Positions 18,372-64,000 of a stretch of DNA of 64,000 bases are shown in pieces. The position numbers and the translations under genes were made by a program. The notes under the pieces are model-generated. The model made no database searches and was not told where the DNA came from. It saw only the letters and a list, made by a program, of their open reading frames with translations. Within the stretch, counting starts at the first letter, position 1; each line of letters begins with the position of its first letter. The stretch comes from an uncultured bacterium (GTDB lineage: Bacteria > Hydrogenedentota > Hydrogenedentia > Hydrogenedentales > CAILVY01): the NCBI GenBank assembly GCA_937951485.1, contig CALEDJ010000049.1, forward strand, positions 1 to 64,000, read 5' to 3'.

Positions 18372-19450
18372 TTTCTGCTGTCCAAACGGTCTGCATCATC
18401 TGGCTGGTGTTGGGACTGGGCCTGGAAGATACGCCCGCGCAATCTGCACCGTCTGCGGAAGCCGTCATTACCGTATCGGTCTTTCTGGAAACACCGGCAT
18501 CGCCATTCCAGCCCGTGGAACCCACCGACAAATCCCAGTCCGTGTTCTTCCTCGATGCCGTTGTGAATTGCGCATCCTTAACGAGCGGCGACGAGATCGG
18601 AATCTTTGACGGCGCCCTGTGCGCAGGCGTATGGCGCGTTGACGCATTTCCTTCCGCGACGCCCGCTACTGTCTATCTGCAATCTGCGGACCCGATAGAG
18701 GGGGTACTGCCCGGCGCGCACCCTGGAAACCCGATGCTTTTCAAGGCATGGGATTCAAGCAGCGGCACGGTGACGGTATTACACGTGACGCATGTGGTCC
18801 AGGGCGCAGATCCGCCCGTGTTCCAGGAAGGGCAGACGGTGACGCTTGCTCTGAGCAACGATGAAACCCCGCCTGTGGCGCGTTGCCGGAATATTGTGGT
18901 CGAACTGGACCTGGACGCCACGGTGACCATCACCGCCGAAGACGTGGACGACGGAAGCGCGGACAACTGCGGCATCGCCGCCATGGACGTGCAACCGAAC
19001 TTCTTTACATGTGCGGAAATCGGCGCGAACACGGTTGTCCTCACCGTGACGGATACCTCGGGCAACGCCGACGTCTGCGAAGCGGTCGTGACCGTGGCAG
19101 ACGTGCTGGGCGTCTGCGTCGAAGGCGAGGGAGCGCTGCCCGAATACCACACCGCCGACCAGAACGCCGATTATCGGATCAGCCTATCCGAGTTGCTCCG
19201 GGGCATCCAGTTCTACAATTCCGGCGGGCTCCACTGCGAGGAAGGCACAGAAGACGGCTATGCCCCGGGACCGCCGGGGGACACGGACTGCCCACCCCAC
19301 GCAAGTGATTACAATCCCCAGGATTGGCGCATCAGCCTTTCCGAACTGCTCCGGTTGATCCAGTTTTACAACAGCGGCGGCTACTACTGGTGTCCGGATG
19401 AGGGCACTGAAGACGGCTGCTGCCCGGGGCCGGGGCCGGAACCGGAATGA
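18368..19450 (+). CDS. Secreted protein with HYR-like domain and C-terminal LSELLRxIQF module
   Basis: 360 residues starting at the ATG that overlaps the previous stop, with a signal peptide (IIWLVLGLGLEDTPAQSA). Residues ~30-165 form a beta domain with GDEIGIFDGALCAGV, as in secreted proteins of the same type. Residues ~170-250 resemble a HYR/Ig domain (TPPVARCRNIVVELDLD, TVTDTSGNADVC). A remnant linker EGEG leads into the same C-terminal module as the SGNH hydrolase: DQNADYRISLSELLRGIQF, TEDGYAPGP, then ASDYNPQDWRISLSELLRLIQF and TEDGCCPGP. Translational coupling to the upstream gene suggests that the four-gene run from 14.3 kb makes one surface assembly. No enzymatic motif is visible. Confidence 0.8.
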   Translation: MISAVQTVCIIWLVLGLGLEDTPAQSAPSAEAVITVSVFLETPASPFQPVEPTDKSQSVFFLDAVVNCASLTSGDEIGIFDGALCAGVWRVDAFPSATPATVYLQSADPIEGVLPGAHPGNPMLFKAWDSSSGTVTVLHVTHVVQGADPPVFQEGQTVTLALSNDETPPVARCRNIVVELDLDATVTITAEDVDDGSADNCGIAAMDVQPNFFTCAEIGANTVVLTVTDTSGNADVCEAVVTVADVLGVCVEGEGALPEYHTADQNADYRISLSELLRGIQFYNSGGLHCEEGTEDGYAPGPPGDTDCPPHASDYNPQDWRISLSELLRLIQFYNSGGYYWCPDEGTEDGCCPGPGPEPE

Positions 19451-19487
19451 ATCGCAAAATCGAAATAACCCAAATATCAGCCAACCC

Positions 19488-20447
19488 ATGAATAGTCGCC
19501 CCCAGATAACGGTGGTTATTTGCACAAGGAATCGTGCGGCTTCCCTTTTCGAGACCCTTCAATCACTCCAGCAGACGATAAGGGAAAATCTGCAAATAGA
19601 AATTGTTGTCGTTGATAATATGAGCGATGACAATACAGCGGAGGTGATAGACTCATTCGCTGAAAAACTGTCCATTACCCGGCTTACGGAAAAGCGGCAG
19701 GGTAAAAGTTACTGCCTGAATCGCGCCGTAAATGAGGGTCATCTGGGTGACATTGTCGCCTTTCTCGATGACGACATAACTGTTGCGGAAAACTGGTTTC
19801 AATCTGTGGCCGCATCGGTGGAGCAACACCCTGACTTTCAGATATTCGGCGGGCGCGTGCATCTTCTTTTTCCAACGGATAATGTCCCCAGTTGGGTTAT
19901 GCGCGGCGGTATCCGCTGGTGGGCGCTGTCAGGAGTGGACCGAGGCGAGGAGGACATCGAGATGGCGCCTTGGGAATGGCCATGCGGAGGTCATTTCTGG
20001 GTGCGGTCCATTGTATTTTCCGGCGGCGAACGCTTTGATCACCTTTGGGCCACGGAACCCGAGTTCGTTCTGCGGCTCAGGAATCTTGGCCATAGGAGCA
20101 TGTGGGTTGGACGGGCGGTGGTGACGCATCGGGTCCAGTCGCATCTCCTTGACTATAAGAACCTGCGCCGCCGCGCAGTCAGGCTCGGTCGCGATCTGCC
20201 CCATGTTCGCAGACATCTCTCGGGAACAGATTTGGCGTCGAGGATACGCGCAAAAAGCACACTGCTTTGGCTGATGCTATGCGCGGGCAACTGGTGCAGA
20301 CATGCGATACGCTATCTTCTCTCCTGCGCACTTTGCGCGCAGGATGCGCGGATCGAACGGCGGCTGGTGTCTGTCATGGCAATGGCCAAGAATCTGGAAT
20401 GTCTGCGCCTGGGCCTTGGCTTGGATCGCTCAAGCCGGTGGAGTTGA
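19488..20447 (+). CDS. Glycosyltransferase family 2
   Basis: 319-residue GT-A fold inverting glycosyltransferase, cytoplasmic or peripheral at the inner membrane. It starts MNSRPQITVVICTRNR at 19488; no strong ribosome site is seen. Nucleotide-binding segment VVDNMSDDNTAEV lies near residue 40 and the metal-binding FLDDDITV near 95. An acceptor-side segment contains WPCGGHFWVRS and ATEPEFVLRL. The C-terminus (~240-300) has amphipathic and hydrophobic stretches but no clear transmembrane segment. It is separated from the EPS operon by the NRPS gene, towards which it converges. Donor and acceptor are unknown. Confidence 0.85.
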   Translation: MNSRPQITVVICTRNRAASLFETLQSLQQTIRENLQIEIVVVDNMSDDNTAEVIDSFAEKLSITRLTEKRQGKSYCLNRAVNEGHLGDIVAFLDDDITVAENWFQSVAASVEQHPDFQIFGGRVHLLFPTDNVPSWVMRGGIRWWALSGVDRGEEDIEMAPWEWPCGGHFWVRSIVFSGGERFDHLWATEPEFVLRLRNLGHRSMWVGRAVVTHRVQSHLLDYKNLRRRAVRLGRDLPHVRRHLSGTDLASRIRAKSTLLWLMLCAGNWCRHAIRYLLSCALCAQDARIERRLVSVMAMAKNLECLRLGLGLDRSSRWS

Positions 20448-51281: not shown

Positions 51282-52193
51282 TTATCCCTGATAGCGTTTC
51301 AGTATGACGCGCTGTCCTCTCTTGGCGTCCTTGTCGCCGGTGGCGAGGCGCCATTCGCCCAGTTTGTGTCCCTTGTAGTAGGCCCAATGCATCACCGCAC
51401 GCCTGACAGGGATGTAGGGCAGGTCGGCAAATTCACCTTGGCGCATGGCATACGCCCATTCCTTCAGAATGGCGGAGAATGCCCTGCCGCATTCTGCGAG
51501 CGGGTTGTTTTTATCTCCGAGAAAGAGGGCCAGCGCTTCGCCGTCACAAAACAGACGGCCGTACAACTGCCGCAGATTATGGTTGTGGGAGTGCATCGCG
51601 AGGACATTTTTGAGATATCTGATTTTTTTCCCATTCTTCTTCGCCCAATACCCCCATTCCGTGTCTTCTGAACCCCATGCGTTTTCAAAAAACGGGTGTT
51701 CCTCCCACGCCGTTTTTCGCATGATGGAAAAAGGCGCCTCGAAGGTAATCCATGGGGGCGTGGCGTCGCTGTCCGGGAAAGCAGATTCGAGTTCGAGCCG
51801 AACCCAACTCCATGCATCCGGGCGCGCGACCTGGCGCGCATAGGCGGCCTGCACGTCAGGATCGTCCAGCGCAGCCACCAGAAGAGTCAGCGCATCGGGG
51901 GCGAGCGGGACAGTATCCGAGTTTTGAAACACGAGCCATTCCCCGCGCGCATGTGCGGCGCCCAGATTGAGGGCCTTTCCGGAAATATACTCTTCCGGCG
52001 GCATATGAATCAGGGTGCAGGGATATTTCCCGACAATTTCGAGCGTGCTGTCTGTTGATCCTGAATCAACAACAATCACTTCAAAGTCTTGATAGTCCTG
52101 CGAAAACAGCGCGGCAAGCGATTGGCCGATGACATTCTCGCAGTTCTTGGTGCGCACGATCACAGATACGCGGGGACGCTTTTCGTTCGTCAC
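51282..52193 (-). CDS. Glycosyltransferase family 2
   Basis: 303-residue GT-A enzyme. It starts at GTG 52193, overlapping the upstream stop by four bases (GTGA). PRVSVIVRTKNCENVIGQSL forms the donor-binding start, VIVVDSGSTDSTLEIV follows near 39, and the metal-site segment is FQNSDTVPLAPDAL, with NSD in place of the usual DxD. FFENAWGSEDTEWGYWAKK near 168 fits the acceptor-side ED motif. It is the last gene of a four-gene overlapping minus-strand operon and probably elongates or decorates the same polysaccharide. Confidence 0.9.
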   Translation of the reverse strand: MTNEKRPRVSVIVRTKNCENVIGQSLAALFSQDYQDFEVIVVDSGSTDSTLEIVGKYPCTLIHMPPEEYISGKALNLGAAHARGEWLVFQNSDTVPLAPDALTLLVAALDDPDVQAAYARQVARPDAWSWVRLELESAFPDSDATPPWITFEAPFSIMRKTAWEEHPFFENAWGSEDTEWGYWAKKNGKKIRYLKNVLAMHSHNHNLRQLYGRLFCDGEALALFLGDKNNPLAECGRAFSAILKEWAYAMRQGEFADLPYIPVRRAVMHWAYYKGHKLGEWRLATGDKDAKRGQRVILKRYQG

Positions 52194-53020
52194 AGTGCTG
52201 TGTCCTTTCTATCGTATGGCCGGCACACTTCGCCCATATGCACGGTCTGACGGGATGCGATGAATGCGAGGAGTCTCTCGAAAGACTTGAACCGGTCACA
52301 GAGGTACATGACGATGGGATGAACAAGCATATTGGACAGAATGCCTTGTTCTTCATGGTGGCGGAGTTCTTCCAGCACGCGCTCGGTCCATTCTTCGATG
52401 TAGAAGGATTCCGGGCCATAATCATCCGACCAGTTATAGCGGCGCACCCACCAGTTTACCCACTCCGGGGTGCGCTCGGCATGGTAAAGGTGCTCGTGAT
52501 CGGGCATGACATTGATAGGGAAATTGAGAATGCCGCTGTGATGCGGCACAGGCCCGATGGCGTCGCGTTTCACGCCGTCGGAACATATGGAGATATGGCA
52601 TTCGTGGAGCACCTTTTCGGTGAACGGGCCATGCATATACATGTGGTTGCGCCAGGAGCAGATTCTCCGTCCGCTTTTTTTTCTGATGATGTCCACCGTT
52701 TTGCGCACGTCGCGGCGCTGATACCATTGAGGGCCGTTGTAACTGCCGTTGATCTTGTTCCAGGCGCGGTGCCACCAGTCCGGTTTGAATGCGGCATAGG
52801 TGTGACCGCCGATTTCGACCAGGGGATGGTCACAGATGGGCTTCAGATCGTCCCATTCCTCCGCGAAACATTTCCCTGTGACAAAAAACGTAACCTTGAC
52901 GTTGGCTTCTTCCAGCATCTTGAGATACCGTCGGGCGACCTGCACTTCCGTGATGTCGCAATGCGCCTGATTGCCGTTTTTCAGGCTCATGTGATGGATG
53001 TCTCCAGTCAGGCAGATCAT
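52190..53020 (-). CDS. Polysaccharide deacetylase-like protein (NodB fold)
   Basis: 276 residues. The start MICLTGDIHHMS provides the catalytic Asp and a metal-binding His pair in the form TGDIHH. VKVTFFVTGKCFAEEW (~41-56) is the typical family strand, and HPLVEIGGHTYAAF the H-x3-5-H region, here reading EIGGHTY. The rest diverges: WRNHMYMHGPFTEKVLHE and NMLVHPIVMYLCDRFKSFERLL. Such enzymes remove N-acetyl groups from amino sugars. There is no signal peptide, so it would act in the cytoplasm on a precursor or lipid-linked sugar. It overlaps both neighbours by four bases, which indicates translational coupling. Confidence 0.85.
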   Translation of the reverse strand: MICLTGDIHHMSLKNGNQAHCDITEVQVARRYLKMLEEANVKVTFFVTGKCFAEEWDDLKPICDHPLVEIGGHTYAAFKPDWWHRAWNKINGSYNGPQWYQRRDVRKTVDIIRKKSGRRICSWRNHMYMHGPFTEKVLHECHISICSDGVKRDAIGPVPHHSGILNFPINVMPDHEHLYHAERTPEWVNWWVRRYNWSDDYGPESFYIEEWTERVLEELRHHEEQGILSNMLVHPIVMYLCDRFKSFERLLAFIASRQTVHMGEVCRPYDRKDTAL

Positions 53021-54243
53021 GGTGTCTCACCCGCTGTGAGCGGCATGCGCCATTTTCCGGCCAGGCACAGAAAATTAGGCTCAACGATGTTTCCCCACGC
53101 ATGCAGATATGCGCGGCGCAGTTCATCTCGCGCGGTGTTTTCCGCATGGAGAAAGCGGGCCGTGAATTCCCGATAATGTTTATCATCGGGAGCGTATGCC
53201 ACGGCGGGGAACAGAATGGGCAGAATGCCGCGTTTGCCAAGCACGCGATATCCAAGCCGGGGGCCGATGCCCGATGCATCGGACCATGCGCCTGGAGTCC
53301 TCAGGCAGTTGACCGCCTTCTTCGCCCAGGCCCGCAGGCTGCGCATATCCGCATGCAAAGCGTTCCGGAACGCCGCCTCGGGGTATGCATGCCACGTCAA
53401 ATCGGAGCGTCCCAGCCGTTTTCTTTCACATGCGAGGTGTATTGGTTCCAGTACCTGGCGCAATTCCGCCATCCATGCGCGCAAATCAGCAGTGCTGTAC
53501 GGCGCGACATCGGGCTGAAACCTGAATTCAATCGCCATGTCATAGAGGTGACGCATCGCTTCGGGCGCTGCGGCGCTGGCGCGCATGCGTTTCTGTTTTT
53601 CCACGTAACTCCAGTGATATTTCCCTTCGAAAAAAAGGTGCGCATCGCCGTAACCGATAATGGCTTTCATGGCGTGCTTCACGATCATTTCCCTGTCTTC
53701 GGGCGACATCGGGCGCGACGCCATGAGTTGTTCGTTGATGAGGAGCAAGGTGCCGCGGTTCACGAGCAGATTCAGAACATCCCAGGCGGGAATACGCGCC
53801 ACAGCAAACTGTTTCAGTGACGGCACGAGGTCGGCATCACCCCAGATGGTCTTGTGGCCGAATCGCATGTCATACCACATCACCAGGCTGGGCGACCGGC
53901 GAAGGCGTGTTTCGTCAACAAGAGAAAAATCAAATTCGATATGTTGTTCTCGTGTCAAGGGAAAGAGGACATTTTTCAGACGGGTTTTGAGCGCCTGCTG
54001 TTGCTTCCGGGACAGCGACCGCGTTATGACGAGAAAATCCAGATTGTTGTGAGGGTGTTCTTCGTTATCCGTCACCATCACGCCGCCCTCTCCCCTGCCA
54101 TAACCACCGAGCAAAACCATTGCCCTGCATGCGGGGGGCGCGAGCACGTCATTCGCTTTCGAGGCGATTTCACGAAGAAGGGCGGTCATCCGCTCCTCGA
54201 AAGCCGGGCTGCCGCGCACCGAAAACCGTCCCCACGGGCGCAT
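53017..54243 (-). CDS. Nucleotidyltransferase-like protein of unknown role
   Basis: 408 residues from ATG 54243, which has AAGGAGG seven bases upstream and shares one base with the previous stop (TAATG). Residues ~42-75 (VLLGGYGRGEGGVM, then NNLDFLVITR) and HIEFDFSLVDE near 105 follow the G[GS]-x-D-x-D pattern of the polymerase-beta nucleotidyltransferase fold, with Gly-rich loop and acidic residues. The remainder is largely helical (RAWAKKAVNCLRTPGAW). I know no named family with certainty. Tight coupling to a glycosyltransferase and a deacetylase suggests nucleotidylation of a sugar or lipid precursor, or a regulatory modification. Confidence 0.65.
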   Translation of the reverse strand: MRPWGRFSVRGSPAFEERMTALLREIASKANDVLAPPACRAMVLLGGYGRGEGGVMVTDNEEHPHNNLDFLVITRSLSRKQQQALKTRLKNVLFPLTREQHIEFDFSLVDETRLRRSPSLVMWYDMRFGHKTIWGDADLVPSLKQFAVARIPAWDVLNLLVNRGTLLLINEQLMASRPMSPEDREMIVKHAMKAIIGYGDAHLFFEGKYHWSYVEKQKRMRASAAAPEAMRHLYDMAIEFRFQPDVAPYSTADLRAWMAELRQVLEPIHLACERKRLGRSDLTWHAYPEAAFRNALHADMRSLRAWAKKAVNCLRTPGAWSDASGIGPRLGYRVLGKRGILPILFPAVAYAPDDKHYREFTARFLHAENTARDELRRAYLHAWGNIVEPNFLCLAGKWRMPLTAGETP

Positions 54244-55406
54244 TATCGCGCCCTCCTTTCCAGGATTGCATGGAAACACGCCAGCAGTTCATGAACATGC
54301 TTTTCCGGCCGGAACAATTCGTGGTATTTTGTGCGTGCGTTTTCTCCCATCTTGTCCCGCAACCCATTTGTTTCGACGATGCAATCCATGGCCTGTGCCA
54401 GCGCCTGTGGATTGTTCGGGGGAACGGTCAGGCCGGTGTGGCCATGTTCCAGCCACGTTGAGACGCCGCCGATATCTGTGGCGATTACAGGTGTCCCGTA
54501 ACTCATGGCTTCCGGTCCCACCAGCGCAAACGATTCCGGTTGTCGGACAGGCAGCACCACGCAGGCGGCCCTGCGATACCAGTCGGACAAGGCCTCATGG
54601 CTGAGTCGTCCCAGGAAAATCACCCGTTCGTGCAGGCCCAATTCGTTGCACAACGCAAGGAACATGGCTTCCTGGCGGCCCTGACCGGCAATGACAAGTT
54701 TTGTCGGGCGTCTGGTCAGCGCCATCGCCCGCAAAAGCGTATCCACGCCTTTGCTGCGCACCAGGTGCCCGACAAATAAAAACAAATCCGGCTCGCGCGC
54801 AATCCGCGCGCCATCCTGCGGCGGCAGCGCATACAGCGGAATCACATGGACACGGTCGGGGGGGAAACCATGTTGGATCATCAGTGCCGCCATGTAACAC
54901 GAAGCCACCACCAGGGCATCAAGTCTTTTGTTTACCTTGCCAGCAGCCCGAAGCGTTCGCACAAGGCGCAGGCGAATGCCGGGAAAGGCGTCCATGCGAT
55001 TGATGAATCCCAGACAGGGAAAATAGCAGCGCATCCCCATCGGTTTGTGGCATGTCCGATGTCTTATTGCCGTGTACCGGTGCTCGCGTGGACAAAACAA
55101 TCGGGTGTCATGAAAGAAACGCACCGTGGGAATTCCGCTTTCAACGATGGCTTCAATGGTTCCGAGGTTGTCAAGATGGTGGATGTAGACAAGGTCCGGC
55201 TGGATGGCCGCCACCTGGGCCTGGATAGCCGCCATGGGGAAGGCCTGGTCGAATGGCTTCACAAATTCGGTGGAGAAGGGGTGTCGGCAGTCGTACAGAA
55301 GGGAAGACTGGACGTTGTACGCCCGTAACAGGCCGGCGGTATTAGAAATATACTGTTCGCAGCCGCCAATGAAATCCGCTGCTTCATTTACCCACAACAC
55401 ACGCAT
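54243..55406 (-). CDS. Glycosyltransferase family 4
   Basis: 387-residue GT-B enzyme opening the four-gene minus-strand operon. It starts MRVLWVNEAADFIGGCEQYI with the GGCE acceptor loop. A cysteine-rich insertion, typical of some GT4 subfamilies, spans FCPREHRYTAIRHRTCHKP to MGMRCYFPCLGFI (~105-140). Donor-side features are LFVGHLVRSKGVDTLLRAM near 210, RQPESFALVGPEAMSYGTPVIA (EX7E) near 290 and GGVSTWLEHGHTGLTV near 315. The four Cys in the insertion could bind a metal. Confidence 0.9.
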   Translation of the reverse strand: MRVLWVNEAADFIGGCEQYISNTAGLLRAYNVQSSLLYDCRHPFSTEFVKPFDQAFPMAAIQAQVAAIQPDLVYIHHLDNLGTIEAIVESGIPTVRFFHDTRLFCPREHRYTAIRHRTCHKPMGMRCYFPCLGFINRMDAFPGIRLRLVRTLRAAGKVNKRLDALVVASCYMAALMIQHGFPPDRVHVIPLYALPPQDGARIAREPDLFLFVGHLVRSKGVDTLLRAMALTRRPTKLVIAGQGRQEAMFLALCNELGLHERVIFLGRLSHEALSDWYRRAACVVLPVRQPESFALVGPEAMSYGTPVIATDIGGVSTWLEHGHTGLTVPPNNPQALAQAMDCIVETNGLRDKMGENARTKYHELFRPEKHVHELLACFHAILERRAR

Positions 55407-55766
55407 GGGCGCATAATGCCTTTTCTTGTTTTAGTGTCACGTTGCCGCCATGGCGCCTTCGCATGTCCTGCCGCACGCCCGCACGCGGTTGCCTCAGACT
55501 GTTCCGGCTCATACCCTGGCCCGCCTTTGATACTCACACAGGTGTGTCCCCCCTCTGTGGGCAAATTCCATACCACTGTTATCCTGGTTGTCAATTGCTG
55601 TTATAGCAACCACTTAGTGTGGGAAATAATTGTTCTTTTCTGACCAACGTGTTCATTTTTGACAAACATTTGCTGCCGTGTTTCCCGCCAACCCTGCACG
55701 CGCTTGCAGTTTCCGCACTGGTGACACCCTCCGCGCAGGCAGCACAGTCGCCCACCCAAGGGGCGG
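55407..55766. other. Intergenic region between two minus-strand operons
   Basis: It contains a TTGCT-GTTAT-AGCAA hairpin (~55594-55608) and a GC-rich imperfect stem (AGTCGCCC/GGGCGGCT, ~55745-55767) right after the regulator gene, which may serve as its terminator. No gene or tRNA is recognisable. Confidence 0.35.
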
Positions 55767-57161
55767 CTACGATTCCCCGATGAGGTTGTACTTGGAAATA
55801 CGGCGGCGGAGCGTCTGATAACTCATATTGAGTATCTGACATGCTTTTCGGCGGTTCCATTGGCATTTTTCCAGTACTTCCATAATCCGTTCGGGGCTTG
55901 GTTCCTTGGTCCCCTCCGCACCGTTTGCACTTGGGGCCGCCACGCCGGTGTCTGTGCCATGGGTGCGCTCGCCGTAGGCGTCCGGGCCGATATGCAGTTT
56001 CCCCAGGGTCAACCAGCGCTTGATGGTGCTCTCCAACTCACGCACATTCCCCGGCCAATGCCAGTCGCACAGGGCCGCCATCTCCTCGGGGGTGATGTCG
56101 GGCGCATTGCGCCTGTCGAGTTCGTGGTGCTTTTGCACAAAATGGCGCACCAGCAGCGGGATATCCTCTTTGCGTTCGGCAAGCGACGGCACGCGAATGC
56201 AGATTTCATTCAGCCGGAAAAAGAGGTCCTGCCGGAAAAACCGGTCCAGAATGCGTTGCTCGATGGGCGCATTGGTTGCGGCGATGATCTGCACATCCAC
56301 CTTGACGGATTTTTTTCCGCCCAGTTTGGTGAATTCCTTGTGCTCGATCACCTGCAGCAATTTCGCCTGAATGCTTGGGGACACATCGCAGATTTCATCC
56401 AGGAAAATAGCCCCCTTGTCAGCAAGGATGAAACGCCCCGGCTTCGGGGCGGTCGCCCCGGTGAAGGCCCCCTTTTCATATCCGAACAGTTCACTTTCCA
56501 GCAATTGTTCGGGCAATGCGGTGCAGTTGACCTTCACGAAGGGCATGTCCCGGCGGGGCGACAGGCGGTGGATTTCACGCGCCACCACGTCCTTGCCGAC
56601 GCCGCTCTCGCCCCGAATCAGGCAATTCAGATTGGTCTGGGCCACCTGCCGGATGACAGCACGCAATTCCTGGATGGCCTGGCTCACCCCGACGAGCAGG
56701 GAAGGTTCCTGGTCGGTGTCGCCCTCCGCCATCGGCGCGATTTTCCGGCGGGCCTTCACCGCGCGCTGCAATTCCGCGCGCACCTCTCCCAGGCTGAACG
56801 GACGCGGCAGGAAACCGGAGGCCCCCCGCTGTACGCAATCCATCACCAGGCGCGGCGAAGCGTGCACCGACGAACACAGCACCACCGGCCTGTTGCCGGT
56901 ATTCATCAACCGCGACAGCACCTCCATGGTAAACCCGGATTCCGGACGAATCTCCATCAAAATGGAGGCGATGCCGTTGTGCTGGGCGAGTTCAATGGCC
57001 TGTTCGGGCGTCGTGGCGTTTTTGACGCGGTATCCTGAATGGGAAAGGCCGCGCTCCAGGGACCATCGCACTCCCGGATCGCTTTCCACAACCAGCACGT
57101 TGACCTCTTTCTTTTCCCTTGCGATGGATTCAGACATTCCGGAAACGTGTGCCTGCATCAT
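55767..57161 (-). CDS. NtrC-like sigma-54 activator with degenerate receiver (Asp to Glu)
   Basis: 464 residues starting at ATG 57161, overlapping the upstream stop (ATGA). The N-terminal receiver-like domain (~20-135) has VVESDP instead of VDDD, LMEIRPESG where the phospho-acceptor Asp (LxDIRMP) is expected, a Ser at the switch Thr position and FLPRPF with Arg for the invariant Lys. The central AAA+ domain is intact: GESGVGKD, GAFTGAT and AIFLDEIC, plus HWPGNVREL. The C-terminal Fis-type helix-turn-helix is CQWNRRKACQILNMSYQTLRRRI. Glu often mimics phospho-Asp, so the protein may be constitutively active or controlled by its partner protein. Its Fis-type tail resembles that of the 28-kb activator. 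Confidence 0.9.
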   Translation of the reverse strand: MMQAHVSGMSESIAREKKEVNVLVVESDPGVRWSLERGLSHSGYRVKNATTPEQAIELAQHNGIASILMEIRPESGFTMEVLSRLMNTGNRPVVLCSSVHASPRLVMDCVQRGASGFLPRPFSLGEVRAELQRAVKARRKIAPMAEGDTDQEPSLLVGVSQAIQELRAVIRQVAQTNLNCLIRGESGVGKDVVAREIHRLSPRRDMPFVKVNCTALPEQLLESELFGYEKGAFTGATAPKPGRFILADKGAIFLDEICDVSPSIQAKLLQVIEHKEFTKLGGKKSVKVDVQIIAATNAPIEQRILDRFFRQDLFFRLNEICIRVPSLAERKEDIPLLVRHFVQKHHELDRRNAPDITPEEMAALCDWHWPGNVRELESTIKRWLTLGKLHIGPDAYGERTHGTDTGVAAPSANGAEGTKEPSPERIMEVLEKCQWNRRKACQILNMSYQTLRRRISKYNLIGES

Positions 57162-58825
57162 GATACGCCTATCTCCTCCAGTTCCTGGGTTGAACTCAGC
57201 GCGTTCCTGGGAAGAATCACGCTGAATGCGCACCACCCCTCCATTTTATGCTCAATTGTCAGCGTGCCTCCGCAGCCCCGGATGGTCCGCTGCGCCATAA
57301 TGAACTTCGGATGACTCCATAGGGCGGCCGGAACAAAGCGGTCCGTCACCCGACGCGCCACGCCGAATAACTCCGAACTCAACCCGTCGTAACTGACCTC
57401 AAAAAGGACCGTGTCGGCCCCGTTGTCGCGCAGCCGCAGGCAAACTTGACGTCCGTTTTCCACCGAACGCACGGCGCTCGTGATAAGGTCCAGAAAGGTG
57501 CGCGCCAAAGCGGCGCCATTGAACAGCACGCACTCGCTGCTGGTGTGGAAATCCTTGTTGATCACGATGCCCCGCTGCTCGATCACGCCCGCCAGGAAGT
57601 CGAGCGCCTGGTCCACAAAATGTTCCAGATGCACTGTCTCCACTGTGTTCCTCTGTGGGGAGGACAAGATGCGGAGTTCCTTTAACTGTTGTCGCAGGTG
57701 TTCCACGTTTTCGTTGATAATGGCCATCCCCTCCATCCCCTCCTGCGACAGGCCGCTTTCCATCACCACATCCGCCGCCGTCCGAATCGCGGTCAACATC
57801 TGCACCATTTCCCGCGAAATGTCCAACGCCAGATTGCCGACGCTGGCCCGCCGCGCCGCGTAGTGGAACAGGCGCATTTCCTGCCATTTCGAGGCGATGA
57901 TCCCGGCGCATGCGGCCAGAAACGCATCGCATTCGGCGTCCGCTTCGAAATCGCGCGGCAAGAAGAAACCCACCGTGCAATAGAGCCGCCCCAGGACCCC
58001 CTGGGGATAGGTCCGCGCTTGCCAGGCGCTTGTGTCCAACCCTAAATGCGATTCCACCGCAGCCGCGAGGTCGCCATAGGCAGTCCCCGATCCGTCGGAC
58101 ATTTCCGCCGCCGGGTTGTCCGCTGACGGCTCCGCCGTCACCACCACCGGCCTGCCATTCTCGGCGGGCGTCACCGCGATGAAGCATTCGCGCGAATGCG
58201 TGGTCGCCAACGCCACGCAGTGCAGCGGCACGCACGGCGCCAGTTTGTCAAACAGGCTCCGGAACAGCGCCTCTTCCGTATGCGCTTCCTCCGGCAGCCG
58301 GTTCAGTTGGAGCAGCACTTCCTGGCGAATATTCACCAGTTCTATATGACTGGCATGACGCCGCAGGTCCGCTGTCGCTTCCGCAACCCGCGTCCGCAGC
58401 AGGTCCCGTTCCTCAGCCAGCGCCTTCAGCAGTTCGTCGCGTTCACGCGTCACCTCGTGGTGGTGCAACGCGCGCCCCAGCGCCGCCTGAAACGTGGTGA
58501 AATCCACCGGCTTCACCAGATAGTCAAATACCCCCGCCCGCATGGTTTCCACGATGGTCTCAGGGCGCGCGTCGGCCGTCAGGATGATGGGGGTACAGCA
58601 CGGATTGCATTGCCGGACAATCGGCACCAGAGACAGGCCATTGCCGTCCGGTAGCCCCAAGTCAATGATGGAACACGCAAAGGCACGCTCCGCAAGCAGC
58701 GCCTTGGCTTCCCCGCACGACGCGGCCTCGGTGTAGGCATGCCCCAAACGCTCCAGCAATGCGCACACAGCGGTGCGCACCACGAGATCATCCTCTACCA
58801 CCAATATGGATAAGTGAACCCCCAA
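57158..58825 (-). CDS. Receiver-GAF-pseudokinase hybrid regulator
   Basis: 555 residues. Residues ~5-120 are an intact receiver: VVEDD, phospho-acceptor in IIDLGLPDGNG, ILTADA and YLVKPVD. A coiled coil (~125-180) leads to a GAF-like region (~195-315). The C-terminal half aligns with NtrB-type kinases but lacks their chemistry. ASVGNLALDISREMVQMLTAIR has Arg where the phospho-acceptor His of AHEINNPL should be. The N box reads FLDLITSAVRSV, without the conserved Asn residues, and the glycine-rich G2 box is absent. It is probably a signal receiver that acts on the adjacent NtrC-like protein by binding rather than phosphotransfer. TTG 58825 is the most likely start but is uncertain. Confidence 0.85.
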   Translation of the reverse strand: MGVHLSILVVEDDLVVRTAVCALLERLGHAYTEAASCGEAKALLAERAFACSIIDLGLPDGNGLSLVPIVRQCNPCCTPIILTADARPETIVETMRAGVFDYLVKPVDFTTFQAALGRALHHHEVTRERDELLKALAEERDLLRTRVAEATADLRRHASHIELVNIRQEVLLQLNRLPEEAHTEEALFRSLFDKLAPCVPLHCVALATTHSRECFIAVTPAENGRPVVVTAEPSADNPAAEMSDGSGTAYGDLAAAVESHLGLDTSAWQARTYPQGVLGRLYCTVGFFLPRDFEADAECDAFLAACAGIIASKWQEMRLFHYAARRASVGNLALDISREMVQMLTAIRTAADVVMESGLSQEGMEGMAIINENVEHLRQQLKELRILSSPQRNTVETVHLEHFVDQALDFLAGVIEQRGIVINKDFHTSSECVLFNGAALARTFLDLITSAVRSVENGRQVCLRLRDNGADTVLFEVSYDGLSSELFGVARRVTDRFVPAALWSHPKFIMAQRTIRGCGGTLTIEHKMEGWCAFSVILPRNALSSTQELEEIGVS

Positions 58826-58938
58826 ACCTCGTATACCCCTCGGTTAATATTCGCCCCTTCTTATTAACCAAACCCTTTTCCTTCCCCTGGATGCGCCGTG
58901 CGGCCCCCAGAAGATTAATCACTTTTGAATCAAATTTT

Positions 58939-60848: not shown

Positions 60849-60938
60849 CCGAGGGCGTCATCACAATGAGGGTAGTGGAATGACGGGGTCGCGAACGTTG
60901 ATACCGCCGCAAGCAGCCGGAGAGAAGGAGTGTGCAAA

Positions 60939-63900
60939 ATGATATGGAACCTGAATTTTTGCGAAGGTGCGCATGTGGGTATGGGCCGACAATTATGTGC
61001 CGTGTTGTTGTCGTTGCTCTTAGCGTCCACGGGCGGCTGGGCGGGCGAAGGGGGCGACGGCGATGAAGACTGTGGCGGCGGCGTTGCGGTGCGGGGCCAG
61101 TTCAAGGCTAAGCATCGGCACCCGCAGGGACTGGCGGCCAGTGATCTCCATTTCTACATGTATCAGAATGATCGGCCTGGGGTGGAGGTCATCGGGGCCA
61201 AGGCCAGTTGCGATAATTTCGGGTCCGTAGGGGTGGGCATGGACTCCGACAACGGCCGCAACCGGGGTCCGGGCGAAGGCCCGCCTTATCATGGCGCAAA
61301 CGTCAACATGGAAGGCGGTTCGGTCGCTAACGGCGAGACGGTTACGATCAATGTCACGCTGTGCATGAACGAGCGCAACATCTTGAAAATCAAGGATTTC
61401 CAATGGACCTACGACGATCAGGGGCAGCCGCCCCAGCCCCGACCCGGACGCGGCGGCTGGCGCATTCACCGGCCTTTCCCAGGCGGCGACGGCGGGGAAA
61501 CCGATAATCCCAGTGGCGGAGGGCGCGGCGCGCAGGAAGGCAATGGCGGCGGCGATGGCAACTTCGTGCATTTTGTCTGCCTGGAAAATGACGACCCGAC
61601 GTTGTGCATGCGGGTACGGGAACTGAAACTGCTGGCCTCGGACCAGACCTATCCCGATATCGGCGCGATTGACTGGGATGCCATTCAGCCGGTGCGGGAT
61701 GTCAAGGGCCGGCCGCCAGTCATCATTCCCCCCGGTGAATCCTGGTGCTACCCGTTCTATACCACCGGCTCCTACCTTGGCGGCCACATCTACGTAAAGT
61801 ATGACGCGGTATGGGAGCCGTGCGGCAAGGCGACCGGAGCAACTGGCGAAAAGGACGAAGAAGAAGACCCGGACATGATTTCCATCGGCGATCACCCCGT
61901 GGATGATCTCAGCCATGACACGGACGGCGACGGCTTGTGGGATTCCTGGGAGGAAGTCTATGGCCTGGACCCCGAAGATGACGGCACGGTGAATGTCACC
62001 AACGGGCCTCTGGGCGATCCCGACAACGATGGATTCGATAACCTGATCGAACAGTCGGCGCTCAGCGATCCCATGGATCCATCCGATCCCGAGGGCATTC
62101 GGGAAGGGTATGATTTTTACCGTCTGGAAGGAACGGTCGTCACGATGTTGCCGCCCCTGCCCCCGGACTTCTTCGGGCCAGGTTCAGACCCGTTTATCAT
62201 TCCCGTGTCTTTTGCAGGCACCCCCGTGCCGCTGACTGCAATCCCGCCCTGTTCGGAAGGCGTCGGCGCGCCGCACGTGATAATCCATCGCCAGCAGTCC
62301 GTGCCGCTGGATGAACTGCTGGCCTTCGGGGTAACGCCCATCGAGATCACCGCCTGCGCCATGCGGAGCACCGAACCCATTCAGGTCACCTATGAAGGCG
62401 GAGGCATGCGGTTTTTCGATGTGTTTTACAGTGTTTCCCCGGATTTTCCGCAGGATGGGCTGTTGGCATTCGAACGCACGCACGGCAATGGCGGACTCCT
62501 CAATTTCAGCATTCTGTTCAGTCCGAGACTTGAGTTCGTCGATCTGGAAGACCCCGCCAATGTCTTTGTTCTGGACGGATTTACAATGGATTTCATCGAA
62601 ATTCTACAAGCGGCGAATGTTCCCTGGGAATTTGTTTCGCCCCGCTATATCTGCACCCCGTGTGCCCCGGACTTTCATCCGGGGATCCAAATGAATGGAT
62701 CACTGACGCCGATTCCGGTGATCGGAATGCAAGCCCCCTATCTCTTCGCGCCCGAATGCGACCTGGCGACCTTTCAGCCCGGAGATGTCATGCCGGGCGT
62801 TGACCTGCTTTCGTCGCGACCACTGTCAGAAATCCGCTTCGGTACACATATCCCGCCCATTCCGGAGGATTTTTTCCATCCGGGTTCTGAACCATTTATC
62901 CCGTGGCCGTGGATTCAGTTGACCGGAGCAGGGCCCGTGAGCATCGAAGAATGCACCACCGAAACGGGCGATGCGGCGGCGGTGGTCCATCGGCGCGACC
63001 CGGCGGCGGTGGCTATCGAAGGCAGCAGCGCCACCATCCCCATCGAACTCGTGGAACTTTCACTGGTCAGCGTGACGCCTATCCGGGTGCTGGATTCCTT
63101 CTTCGACGTGTTTTTCAAGGTATCACCGGACGCCCCTTGCACCGGCACAATGACCATCACACGGACCCATCCACACGGCGGCACATTTGATGCAACGCTG
63201 TTTCTGCAGCCGGAGTTTGTTTTTGTGGAGGTCGGCAATCCCTCGAACACCCGGATATTGTTTAATCCCCGCAAATATTCTTTGCGCCTGGAATGCTCCA
63301 ATATTCCCTGGAGCGATGATCCTTCCCCCCTGGGGTGGCCGCCTTGCGCCTCCAATTTCGTTCCCGGTATGGATGACCTGGGCCGCGTGCCCATTCCACT
63401 GGACAGCGTGCCATCCACCTTGACCTTTGTCGCTTCAGACCTCATCGGCGGCGAGGGCGAGGGTGAAGGTGAAGGCGAGGGCGAGGGCGAAGGCGAAGGT
63501 GAAGGCGAAGGCGAAGGTGAAGGGGAAGGTGAGGGTGAAGGCGAGGGCGAAGGCGAGGGCGAAGGTGAAGGGGAAGGTGAAGGCGAGGGCGAGGGAGAAC
63601 TGCTGTGCGAAGTCACCTTGACAGGCGCCTTGGAAGTGCCGCCCAATCCCAGCACTGCCACCGGCGTGGCGTCGTTTGTTCGGACCGCACCGGATGAAGT
63701 GGTGCTCACGGTGATACATGACGTGAGCAGCCCAATAGGCGCCCATATCCACATGGGCGCACCCGGCGTGAACGGCCCAATTGTCATCGGTCTGGGAGGC
63801 GGCATAAGTCCTATCGTCTTCACCATGACTCTGGCCGAATACAACGTTGTCACCGCCTACGGGCATTACATCAATGTGCATAGCGGCGCATATCCCGGCG

Positions 63901-64000
63901 GCGAAATCCGCGCGGATTTGAATTGCCCGGCAGCAGAAGGCGAAGGCGAGGGTGAGGGCGAAGGTGAGGGTGAAGGCGAGGGTGAAGGCGAGGGTGAAGG
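60939..64000 (+). CDS. Giant secreted protein with duplicated module, CHRD domain and Gly-Glu linkers (3' end outside window)
   Basis: I read one frame without stops from ATG 60939 (AAGGAG eight bases upstream) to the window edge, at least 1020 residues. A signal peptide lies at ~15-38 (LCAVLLSLLLASTGGWA). A beta domain follows (~50-310), then a calcium-binding-type segment DTDGDGLWDSWEEVYGLDP (~327-345). Two copies of a ~200-residue module follow (nt ~62146-62740 and ~62863-63440). They share GPGSDPFI/HPGSEPFI, FFDVFYSVSPD/FFDVFFKVSPD and ANVPW/SNIPW. After a ~49-residue Gly-Glu linker comes a CHRD domain (~888-995): LTGALEVPPNPSTATGVASF, AHIHMGAPGVNG and YINVHSGAYPGGEIRADL. A second Gly-Glu linker begins at ~63941 and likely precedes a further domain or the C-terminal module. 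Confidence 0.85.
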   Translation, partial: MIWNLNFCEGAHVGMGRQLCAVLLSLLLASTGGWAGEGGDGDEDCGGGVAVRGQFKAKHRHPQGLAASDLHFYMYQNDRPGVEVIGAKASCDNFGSVGVGMDSDNGRNRGPGEGPPYHGANVNMEGGSVANGETVTINVTLCMNERNILKIKDFQWTYDDQGQPPQPRPGRGGWRIHRPFPGGDGGETDNPSGGGRGAQEGNGGGDGNFVHFVCLENDDPTLCMRVRELKLLASDQTYPDIGAIDWDAIQPVRDVKGRPPVIIPPGESWCYPFYTTGSYLGGHIYVKYDAVWEPCGKATGATGEKDEEEDPDMISIGDHPVDDLSHDTDGDGLWDSWEEVYGLDPEDDGTVNVTNGPLGDPDNDGFDNLIEQSALSDPMDPSDPEGIREGYDFYRLEGTVVTMLPPLPPDFFGPGSDPFIIPVSFAGTPVPLTAIPPCSEGVGAPHVIIHRQQSVPLDELLAFGVTPIEITACAMRSTEPIQVTYEGGGMRFFDVFYSVSPDFPQDGLLAFERTHGNGGLLNFSILFSPRLEFVDLEDPANVFVLDGFTMDFIEILQAANVPWEFVSPRYICTPCAPDFHPGIQMNGSLTPIPVIGMQAPYLFAPECDLATFQPGDVMPGVDLLSSRPLSEIRFGTHIPPIPEDFFHPGSEPFIPWPWIQLTGAGPVSIEECTTETGDAAAVVHRRDPAAVAIEGSSATIPIELVELSLVSVTPIRVLDSFFDVFFKVSPDAPCTGTMTITRTHPHGGTFDATLFLQPEFVFVEVGNPSNTRILFNPRKYSLRLECSNIPWSDDPSPLGWPPCASNFVPGMDDLGRVPIPLDSVPSTLTFVASDLIGGEGEGEGEGEGEGEGEGEGEGEGEGEGEGEGEGEGEGEGEGEGEGEGEGELLCEVTLTGALEVPPNPSTATGVASFVRTAPDEVVLTVIHDVSSPIGAHIHMGAPGVNGPIVIGLGGGISPIVFTMTLAEYNVVTAYGHYINVHSGAYPGGEIRADLNCPAAEGEGEGEGEGEGEGEGEGEGE
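63451..63597 (+). repeat. Gly-Glu coding repeat
   Basis: About 24 GGYGAR hexamers encode an acidic linker before the CHRD domain of the giant secreted protein. Confidence 0.88.
63941..64000 (+). repeat. Gly-Glu coding repeat cut by the window edge
   Basis: A second Gly-Glu hexamer array directly after the CHRD domain, continuing beyond the last base. Such repeats are also difficult for assemblers, which may explain a contig or window end here. Confidence 0.85.

Follow-up and report, generated by a model that had tools for sequence, protein, structure and literature searches.

A paired pseudo-histidine kinase and aspartate-less σ54 activator that may control exosortase-linked promoters by protein contact in the Hydrogenedentales

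The 64,000-nucleotide stretch of DNA analysed here (the window; positions 1 to 64,000 of contig CALEDJ010000049.1, assembly GCA_937951485.1, from an uncultured member of the Hydrogenedentales) contains two overlapping genes, one for a hybrid protein that resembles a histidine kinase and one for an NtrC-like activator of σ54 (sigma-54) promoters, and the residues used for phosphotransfer between such partners are missing from both. Taken together, the evidence suggests, with a probability that we put at roughly 0.6, that the hybrid is a pseudokinase, switched by phosphorylation, which gates a pre-activated σ54 activator by contact at exosortase-linked promoters that carry a DNA dyad.

The hybrid is a soluble protein composed of a receiver, a long coiled coil, a GAF-like region, a degenerate dimerization and histidine phosphotransfer (DHp) domain and a degenerate ATPase domain, and no membrane helix was found in it. 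A sequence-only reading of the same DNA had described the N-terminal receiver as complete, and the five residues listed for it in Table 1 are indeed all present in a domain that matches Pfam Response_reg with 66 bits. That reading had also reported an Arg in place of the acceptor His and the loss of the N-box Asn and of G2, and the alignment shows the same: the H-box column holds Arg338, with no phospho-acceptor His (ASVGNLALDISREMVQMLTAI), the N-box reads LDLITSA where NLxxNA is expected, G1 reads YDGLSS instead of DNGPG, and a trailing CGG is all that stays of G2. The Pfam matches of the hybrid to HisKA (14.3 bits, cut-off 26.9) and HATPase_c (12.5 bits, cut-off 26.4) are both below the cut-off. 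An AlphaFold2 model built from 19 sequences (mean predicted local distance difference test score 80.5) contains two long DHp-type helices and an ATPase-like domain, and a Foldseek search places its C-terminal half on ZraS (E 9e-13) as well as on RetS, DivL and HK853. Comparison with known families by profile hidden Markov models and structure prediction, which had been proposed as a check, thus finds the DHp and ATPase fold of a canonical histidine kinase kept and its His and N, G1 and G2 boxes lost. The hybrid is a pseudo-histidine kinase in the broad sense of a protein that has the kinase fold, lacks the catalytic functions and is kept by selection. Other histidines were rejected as the acceptor, since those upstream in the DHp helix are not conserved (locus L032 has none), precede the ASLG motif and lie outside the acceptor column.

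The second protein has the receiver-like domain, the AAA+ domain with GAFTGA and the Fis-type helix-turn-helix (HTH) that define the NtrC family, and rpoN is present in the window's genome. Its AAA+ and DNA-binding domains are intact, as had been claimed, with Walker A, Walker B, HTH_8 and, judged by eye, GAFTGA all in place (scores in Table 1). The N-terminal domain, which matches Response_reg with 44 bits, has its acceptor Asp replaced and so belongs with the aspartate-less receivers of atypical response regulators; at E26-S27, one of the two Mg-binding acids is lost as well. In the activator model, Glu70 lies at the end of β3, Ser98 at the end of β4 and residue 120 just after β5, and helix 1, which spans residues 29-41, is proposed as the docking face. 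The start codon is probably the ATG at 57161, rather than a GTG at 57236. FleQ-like control by cyclic di-GMP was considered and rejected, as inspection alone found no LFRS motif before the AAA+ domain, though family f5 of the order has a neighbouring pseudo-GGDEF gene.

The sequence-only reading had called for a search of related genomes for the pair and its substitutions, and 119 relatives were searched, with 68 genomes forming the order-level sample. Full-length kinase orthologues were confined, among these relatives, to the window's own order, about 30 genomes of which carry the pair; in a contig scan with the kinase beyond the relatives, unrelated taxa gave receiver-domain matches only. 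Activator orthologues scored at least 456 bits and paralogues at most 299 bits, and one paralogue row (L163) in the wrong frame was excluded from the counts. In the readable kinase orthologues, the His column is occupied by Arg, Lys or Gln (Gln in genome G024) and in none by His, and the ATP motifs are likewise missing from all of them. Every orthologue retains an intact kinase receiver; D12, D55, T83 and K105 do not vary among 19 of these. In the activator, the acceptor position is Glu in each of the 27 orthologues and the second acid is kept in none; the switch position is Ser in 24 and Ala in three, and the lysine position is Lys in 26. The earlier description of this domain (Glu for Asp, Ser at the switch, Arg for Lys) applies to all 27 orthologues in its first part and to 24 in its second, and its third is true of the window species only. 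The acceptor Asp, second acid, Thr and Lys are kept in all 19 properly read paralogues.

Selection on both genes is also apparent: dN/dS (the ratio of nonsynonymous to synonymous substitution rates) between close orthologues is 0.07-0.13 for the kinase and 0.07-0.12 for the activator, reading frames are open, and identity across many families is 36-45% and 51-60%, respectively. The two genes are adjacent, with starts that overlap or touch in most orthologous loci. Since the pair, with its losses of His and Asp, is conserved across the order and dN/dS is 0.07-0.13, recent decay is excluded, and strain-specific decay, for which close relatives had been expected to carry the usual His and Asp, is ruled out by the orthologues in about 30 genomes. 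These sequence comparisons support the conclusion that loss of phosphotransfer in both partners is ancient and under selection. Four residues of the pseudo-ATPase domain (C432, N436, G437 and C518) are invariant across orthologues, as are C96 and C109 of the activator's pseudo-receiver, and, like C432 and C518 of the kinase, these cysteines could have a redox or structural role.

Two genomes in which one partner was found without the other provide natural experiments. In receivers generally, helix 1 is the surface on which kinases classically dock. In G001, where the activator lies beside exopolysaccharide and PEP-CTERM genes and no kinase orthologue was found, even by profile search, five of the seven conserved positions of activator helix 1 are changed (G30D, V31L, W33E, G38T and S42G), compared with zero to two in each of 26 paired orthologues (10/186 pooled); the ATPase and HTH are mostly kept, and the composites of dyad and σ54 promoter described below persist. 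The reciprocal case is G024, where the pseudokinase is present and no activator orthologue was found. Here, 25 of 49 conserved positions in the DHp and ATPase domains are changed, against one of 46 in the receiver and coiled coil (p 2e-8), and the corresponding changes in the DHp and ATPase halves of paired kinase orthologues are 0-5 of ~21 and 0-6 of ~30. In the simplest view of these data, the pseudo-transmitter would dock onto the pseudo-receiver, with input entering through the receiver that the hybrid itself carries. The relaxed positions in both genomes are consistent with the control by protein contact that had been proposed earlier, through a surface between the pseudo-transmitter and helix 1. 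The further proposal of a constitutively primed activator fits the persistence of activator and DNA sites in G001 without the pseudokinase; Glu70 may lock the on state. Beside the unpaired activator, G001 also encodes an 817-residue fusion of two exopolysaccharide glycosylphosphotransferase-like halves (L100:9495-11945).

The likely regulon, which consists of exosortase, PEP-CTERM and exopolysaccharide genes, and its DNA site are additions to the earlier reading. Genes around the pair encode PEP-CTERM proteins, exopolysaccharide glycosylphosphotransferases and O-antigen-ligase-like proteins. When the 68 genomes are classified by a member of the pair and by exosortase (TIGR02602), 25 have both, eight the pair only, three exosortase only and 32 neither (Fisher p 1.3e-8), and the two co-vary in presence and absence within families f1, f4 and f11. 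Predicted σ54 promoters immediately precede PEP-CTERM genes, the gene for the exopolysaccharide initiating transferase and the pseudo-GGDEF gene. A palindromic motif search of 16 upstream regions returned TTGTCA-N4-TGACAA with a log-likelihood of 98.2, compared with at most 41.3 in 24 shuffled sets, and in 13 of the 16 sites the dyad is 95-119 bp from the -24 element, a spacing that was not used in the search. The dyad, ~100 bp upstream of the σ54 site, is common to the predicted promoters of PEP-CTERM, exopolysaccharide and exosortase genes.

A strict composite of dyad and promoter had 44 matches in the 33 pair-positive genomes (2 with a reversed control) and 12 in the 35 pair-negative genomes (5 with the control). 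The only strict match in the window's genome is located before its only detected PEP-CTERM gene. When a weight matrix trained without sites from this genome was used, the best composite of the window, at 55560-55667, fell between the pair and a glycosyltransferase operon and was equalled in one of 60 shuffled windows, and additional composites were found on contig C14, upstream of the exosortase operon and of the initiating transferase. The kinase gene is itself preceded by a strong dyad-like site (Table 1), with which no σ54 promoter was found and which may be an operator for autoregulation.

According to the mechanism proposed here, no phosphate would pass between the hybrid and the activator. 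Patterns of evolution suggest that the activator binds TTGTCA-N4-TGACAA dyads and that the pseudo-DHp and ATPase half of the hybrid would contact helix 1 of the pseudo-receiver. More tentatively, D55 of the hybrid might be phosphorylated by another kinase or a small phosphodonor, and this might change whether the hybrid restrains the pre-activated activator. Pre-activation is plausible, and Glu at the acceptor site activates NtrC according to Klose et al. (1993), as cited in PMC4395418. We see an even chance that the system is, more broadly, one in which phosphotransfer between partners was abolished on both sides, the docking interface was kept, phosphorylation moved to the kinase-side receiver and the signal is passed by contact alone, and that it is an exosortase/PEP-CTERM regulator for a whole non-proteobacterial order.

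Several observations weigh against this proposal. Each natural experiment is a single genome, and G001 and G024 are both draft assemblies. The co-occurrence counts cover related genomes, so the Fisher p, which is uncorrected for relatedness, is inflated; in addition, eight pair-positive genomes, most of them incomplete or fragmented, have no full exosortase match. The spacing of 73 bp between dyad and promoter at the window's own target is atypical, and no conserved neighbouring kinase able to phosphorylate D55 was seen. As for pre-activation, the second Mg-binding acid of the activator is gone, and Glu is not always phosphomimetic, as constitutive DNA binding by ChxR survived a change of its Glu to Asp or Ala (PMC4395418).

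The evidence on contact and conservation would be the same if the activator needed the hybrid as a co-activator, in the way that FlbD needs FliX, so that the Glu-containing activator was idle until the phosphorylated hybrid docked on helix 1 and drove its assembly; indeed, FliX can activate FlbD by contact (PMC3096577). We nevertheless hold this to be unlikely. G001 retains the activator, its ATPase and HTH and the dyad-promoter sites while a hybrid is undetectable, which suggests that the activator can function there by itself, although G001 could have adapted. For this reason, we consider it somewhat more likely that the hybrid restrains a pre-activated activator than that co-activation by it is obligatory. 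It is less probable still that the activator is constitutive and set by its amount only, with the hybrid serving another partner (a different response regulator or kinase, in the manner of DivL or RetS) and sharing just the operon. The transmitter of DivL does sense a phosphorylated regulator (PMC4211667), RetS and DivL are among the Foldseek matches of the hybrid, and the dyad-like site ahead of the kinase gene hints at autoregulation; however, a separate partner does not account for divergence of the DHp and ATPase halves where the activator is missing (G024) or of activator helix 1 where the hybrid is missing (G001). Finally, the simultaneous loss of many catalytic positions could indicate relics of a two-component system that is losing function, or an annotation artefact, but the dN/dS values, open frames, identities across families, uniform Glu and newly invariant residues given above make this barely credible.

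Several other genes in the window and in the genomes of the order are also of note. In family f5 (L048-L059, for example L054:6727-7305), a conserved GGDEF-like protein that has lost its GGDEF motif (FSLSKSGLAILL) is encoded divergently from the kinase gene; all 18 genomes that carry this gene have the pair, a dyad and σ54 site are in its promoter in several, and, as judged from its sequence, the protein is another dead signalling enzyme, the third found here. Some genomes also encode, close to the system, an NtrC-like activator that lacks a receiver (L049:9678-10973; L110:17801-18868), in one case with its own σ54 promoter, and this is possibly a second activator of the regulon. On contig C14 of the window's genome, the initiating transferase and exosortase genes adjoin genes for RNA polymerase β and β′, subunits recognised by eye (L098:10059-18032 and 18764-19900; L099), and the gene next after exosortase encodes a PrsT-like tetratricopeptide repeat protein (164.7 bits, below the cut-off of 312.2). 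Elsewhere in the window, an open frame of more than 1000 residues with long Glu-Gly repeats and no NCBIfam match (60930-63998) runs off the end. Coordinates of the main features are in Table 1.

Table 1. Features of the pair and its predicted sites, in window coordinates.
Feature	Position	Strand	Details
Soluble hybrid pseudo-histidine kinase	57158..58825	-	555 residues; TTG start at 58825, stop at 57158
Intact receiver of hybrid	58466..58825	-	residues 1-120; E11, D12, D55, T83, K105
Pseudo-DHp of hybrid	57650..57937	-	residues 297-392; Arg338 in phospho-His column
Pseudo-ATPase domain of hybrid	57191..57643	-	residues 395-545; without N-box Asn, G1, G2
NtrC-like σ54 activator with aspartate-less pseudo-receiver	55767..57161	-	464 residues
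Overlap of kinase stop and activator start	57158..57161	-	TCATGATG; ATGATG
Pseudo-receiver of activator	56769..57104	-	residues 20-131; Glu70 (for Asp), S27 (for second acid), S98 at switch, R120
AAA+ σ54 interaction domain	56004..56696	-	PF00158, 217 bits; Walker A/B, GAFTGA
Fis-type HTH DNA-binding domain	55788..55892	-	HTH_8, 41 bits; WNRRKAA..L.ISYQ.LRRRIEK conserved
Predicted activator site (order-wide dyad)	55648..55667	-	GTTTGTCAAAAATGAACACG
Predicted σ54 promoter	55560..55575	-	TGGTATGGAATTTGCC; 73 bp downstream of dyad
Putative target operon	51282..55406	-	GT4 glycosyltransferase, unknown 420-residue protein, polysaccharide deacetylase-like protein, GT2 glycosyltransferase
Dyad-like site upstream of kinase gene	58914..58933	-	TTGATTCAAAAGTGATTAAT

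Pseudo-receivers are common, and a 2025 review describes the way in which they are switched as a "mystery" (PMC12632262). In the pair described here, the pseudo-receiver activator has a pseudokinase partner that is conserved and seems to co-evolve with it, its likely target promoters form a defined set, and the two genomes with an unpaired member indicate where the contact surfaces may lie; two-component signalling without phosphate can therefore be tested directly. The pair and its dyad are also candidates for the kind of regulator and DNA site that Haft et al. (PMC1569441) called undiscovered for PEP-CTERM/exosortase systems, including outside the Proteobacteria. The parts are themselves of known kinds, and the regulon is open to experiment.

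A functional analogue of the pair is the PrsK-PrsR-PrsT system of PEP-CTERM regulation in Proteobacteria (Haft et al., 2006; PMC1569441), which also has a kinase-like protein and an NtrC-like Fis/σ54 activator, usually encoded in tandem near exopolysaccharide genes, and in which sites upstream of PEP-CTERM genes also consist of an activator motif and a -24/-12 promoter. Unlike the TTGTCA-N4-TGACAA dyad, the motif of Haft et al. has TTTACA and is from Proteobacteria only (PMC1569441). Membership of the Prs families themselves was rejected: the activator scores 274.9 bits against the PrsR cut-off of 502.6 (TIGR02915), which no genome among the 68 of the order exceeds, and PrsK (TIGR02916), a transmembrane histidine kinase, matched none of the 68 at E 1e-40 and no control genome either, while the hybrid is without a membrane helix.

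Parallels to the proposed mechanism come from Caulobacter. FlbD, like the activator described here, is a σ54 activator with a degenerate receiver that is controlled by binding of its partner, FliX, and not by phosphorylation (PMC3096577), but here the partner has a histidine-kinase fold and a receiver of its own. DivL, a dead kinase repurposed as a sensor, resembles the hybrid in having a histidine-kinase fold without kinase activity that signals via a receiver-docking surface (PMC4211667); DivL reads phosphorylated DivK~P, whereas the putative partner here is aspartate-less and the hybrid has its own intact receiver. The activator is also like other aspartate-less receivers, in which Glu at the acceptor is the commonest substitution and the second acid is lost (PMC4395418; PMC12632262). 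About 0.9% of HisKA domains are without His, and those pseudo-receiver regulators that have been characterised are mostly orphans (PMC12632262); no pseudokinase and pseudo-receiver pair of this kind was found described in the literature searched, coverage of which was limited. Unlike most of those characterised, the regulator of the Hydrogenedentales has a fixed, apparently co-evolving pseudokinase partner.
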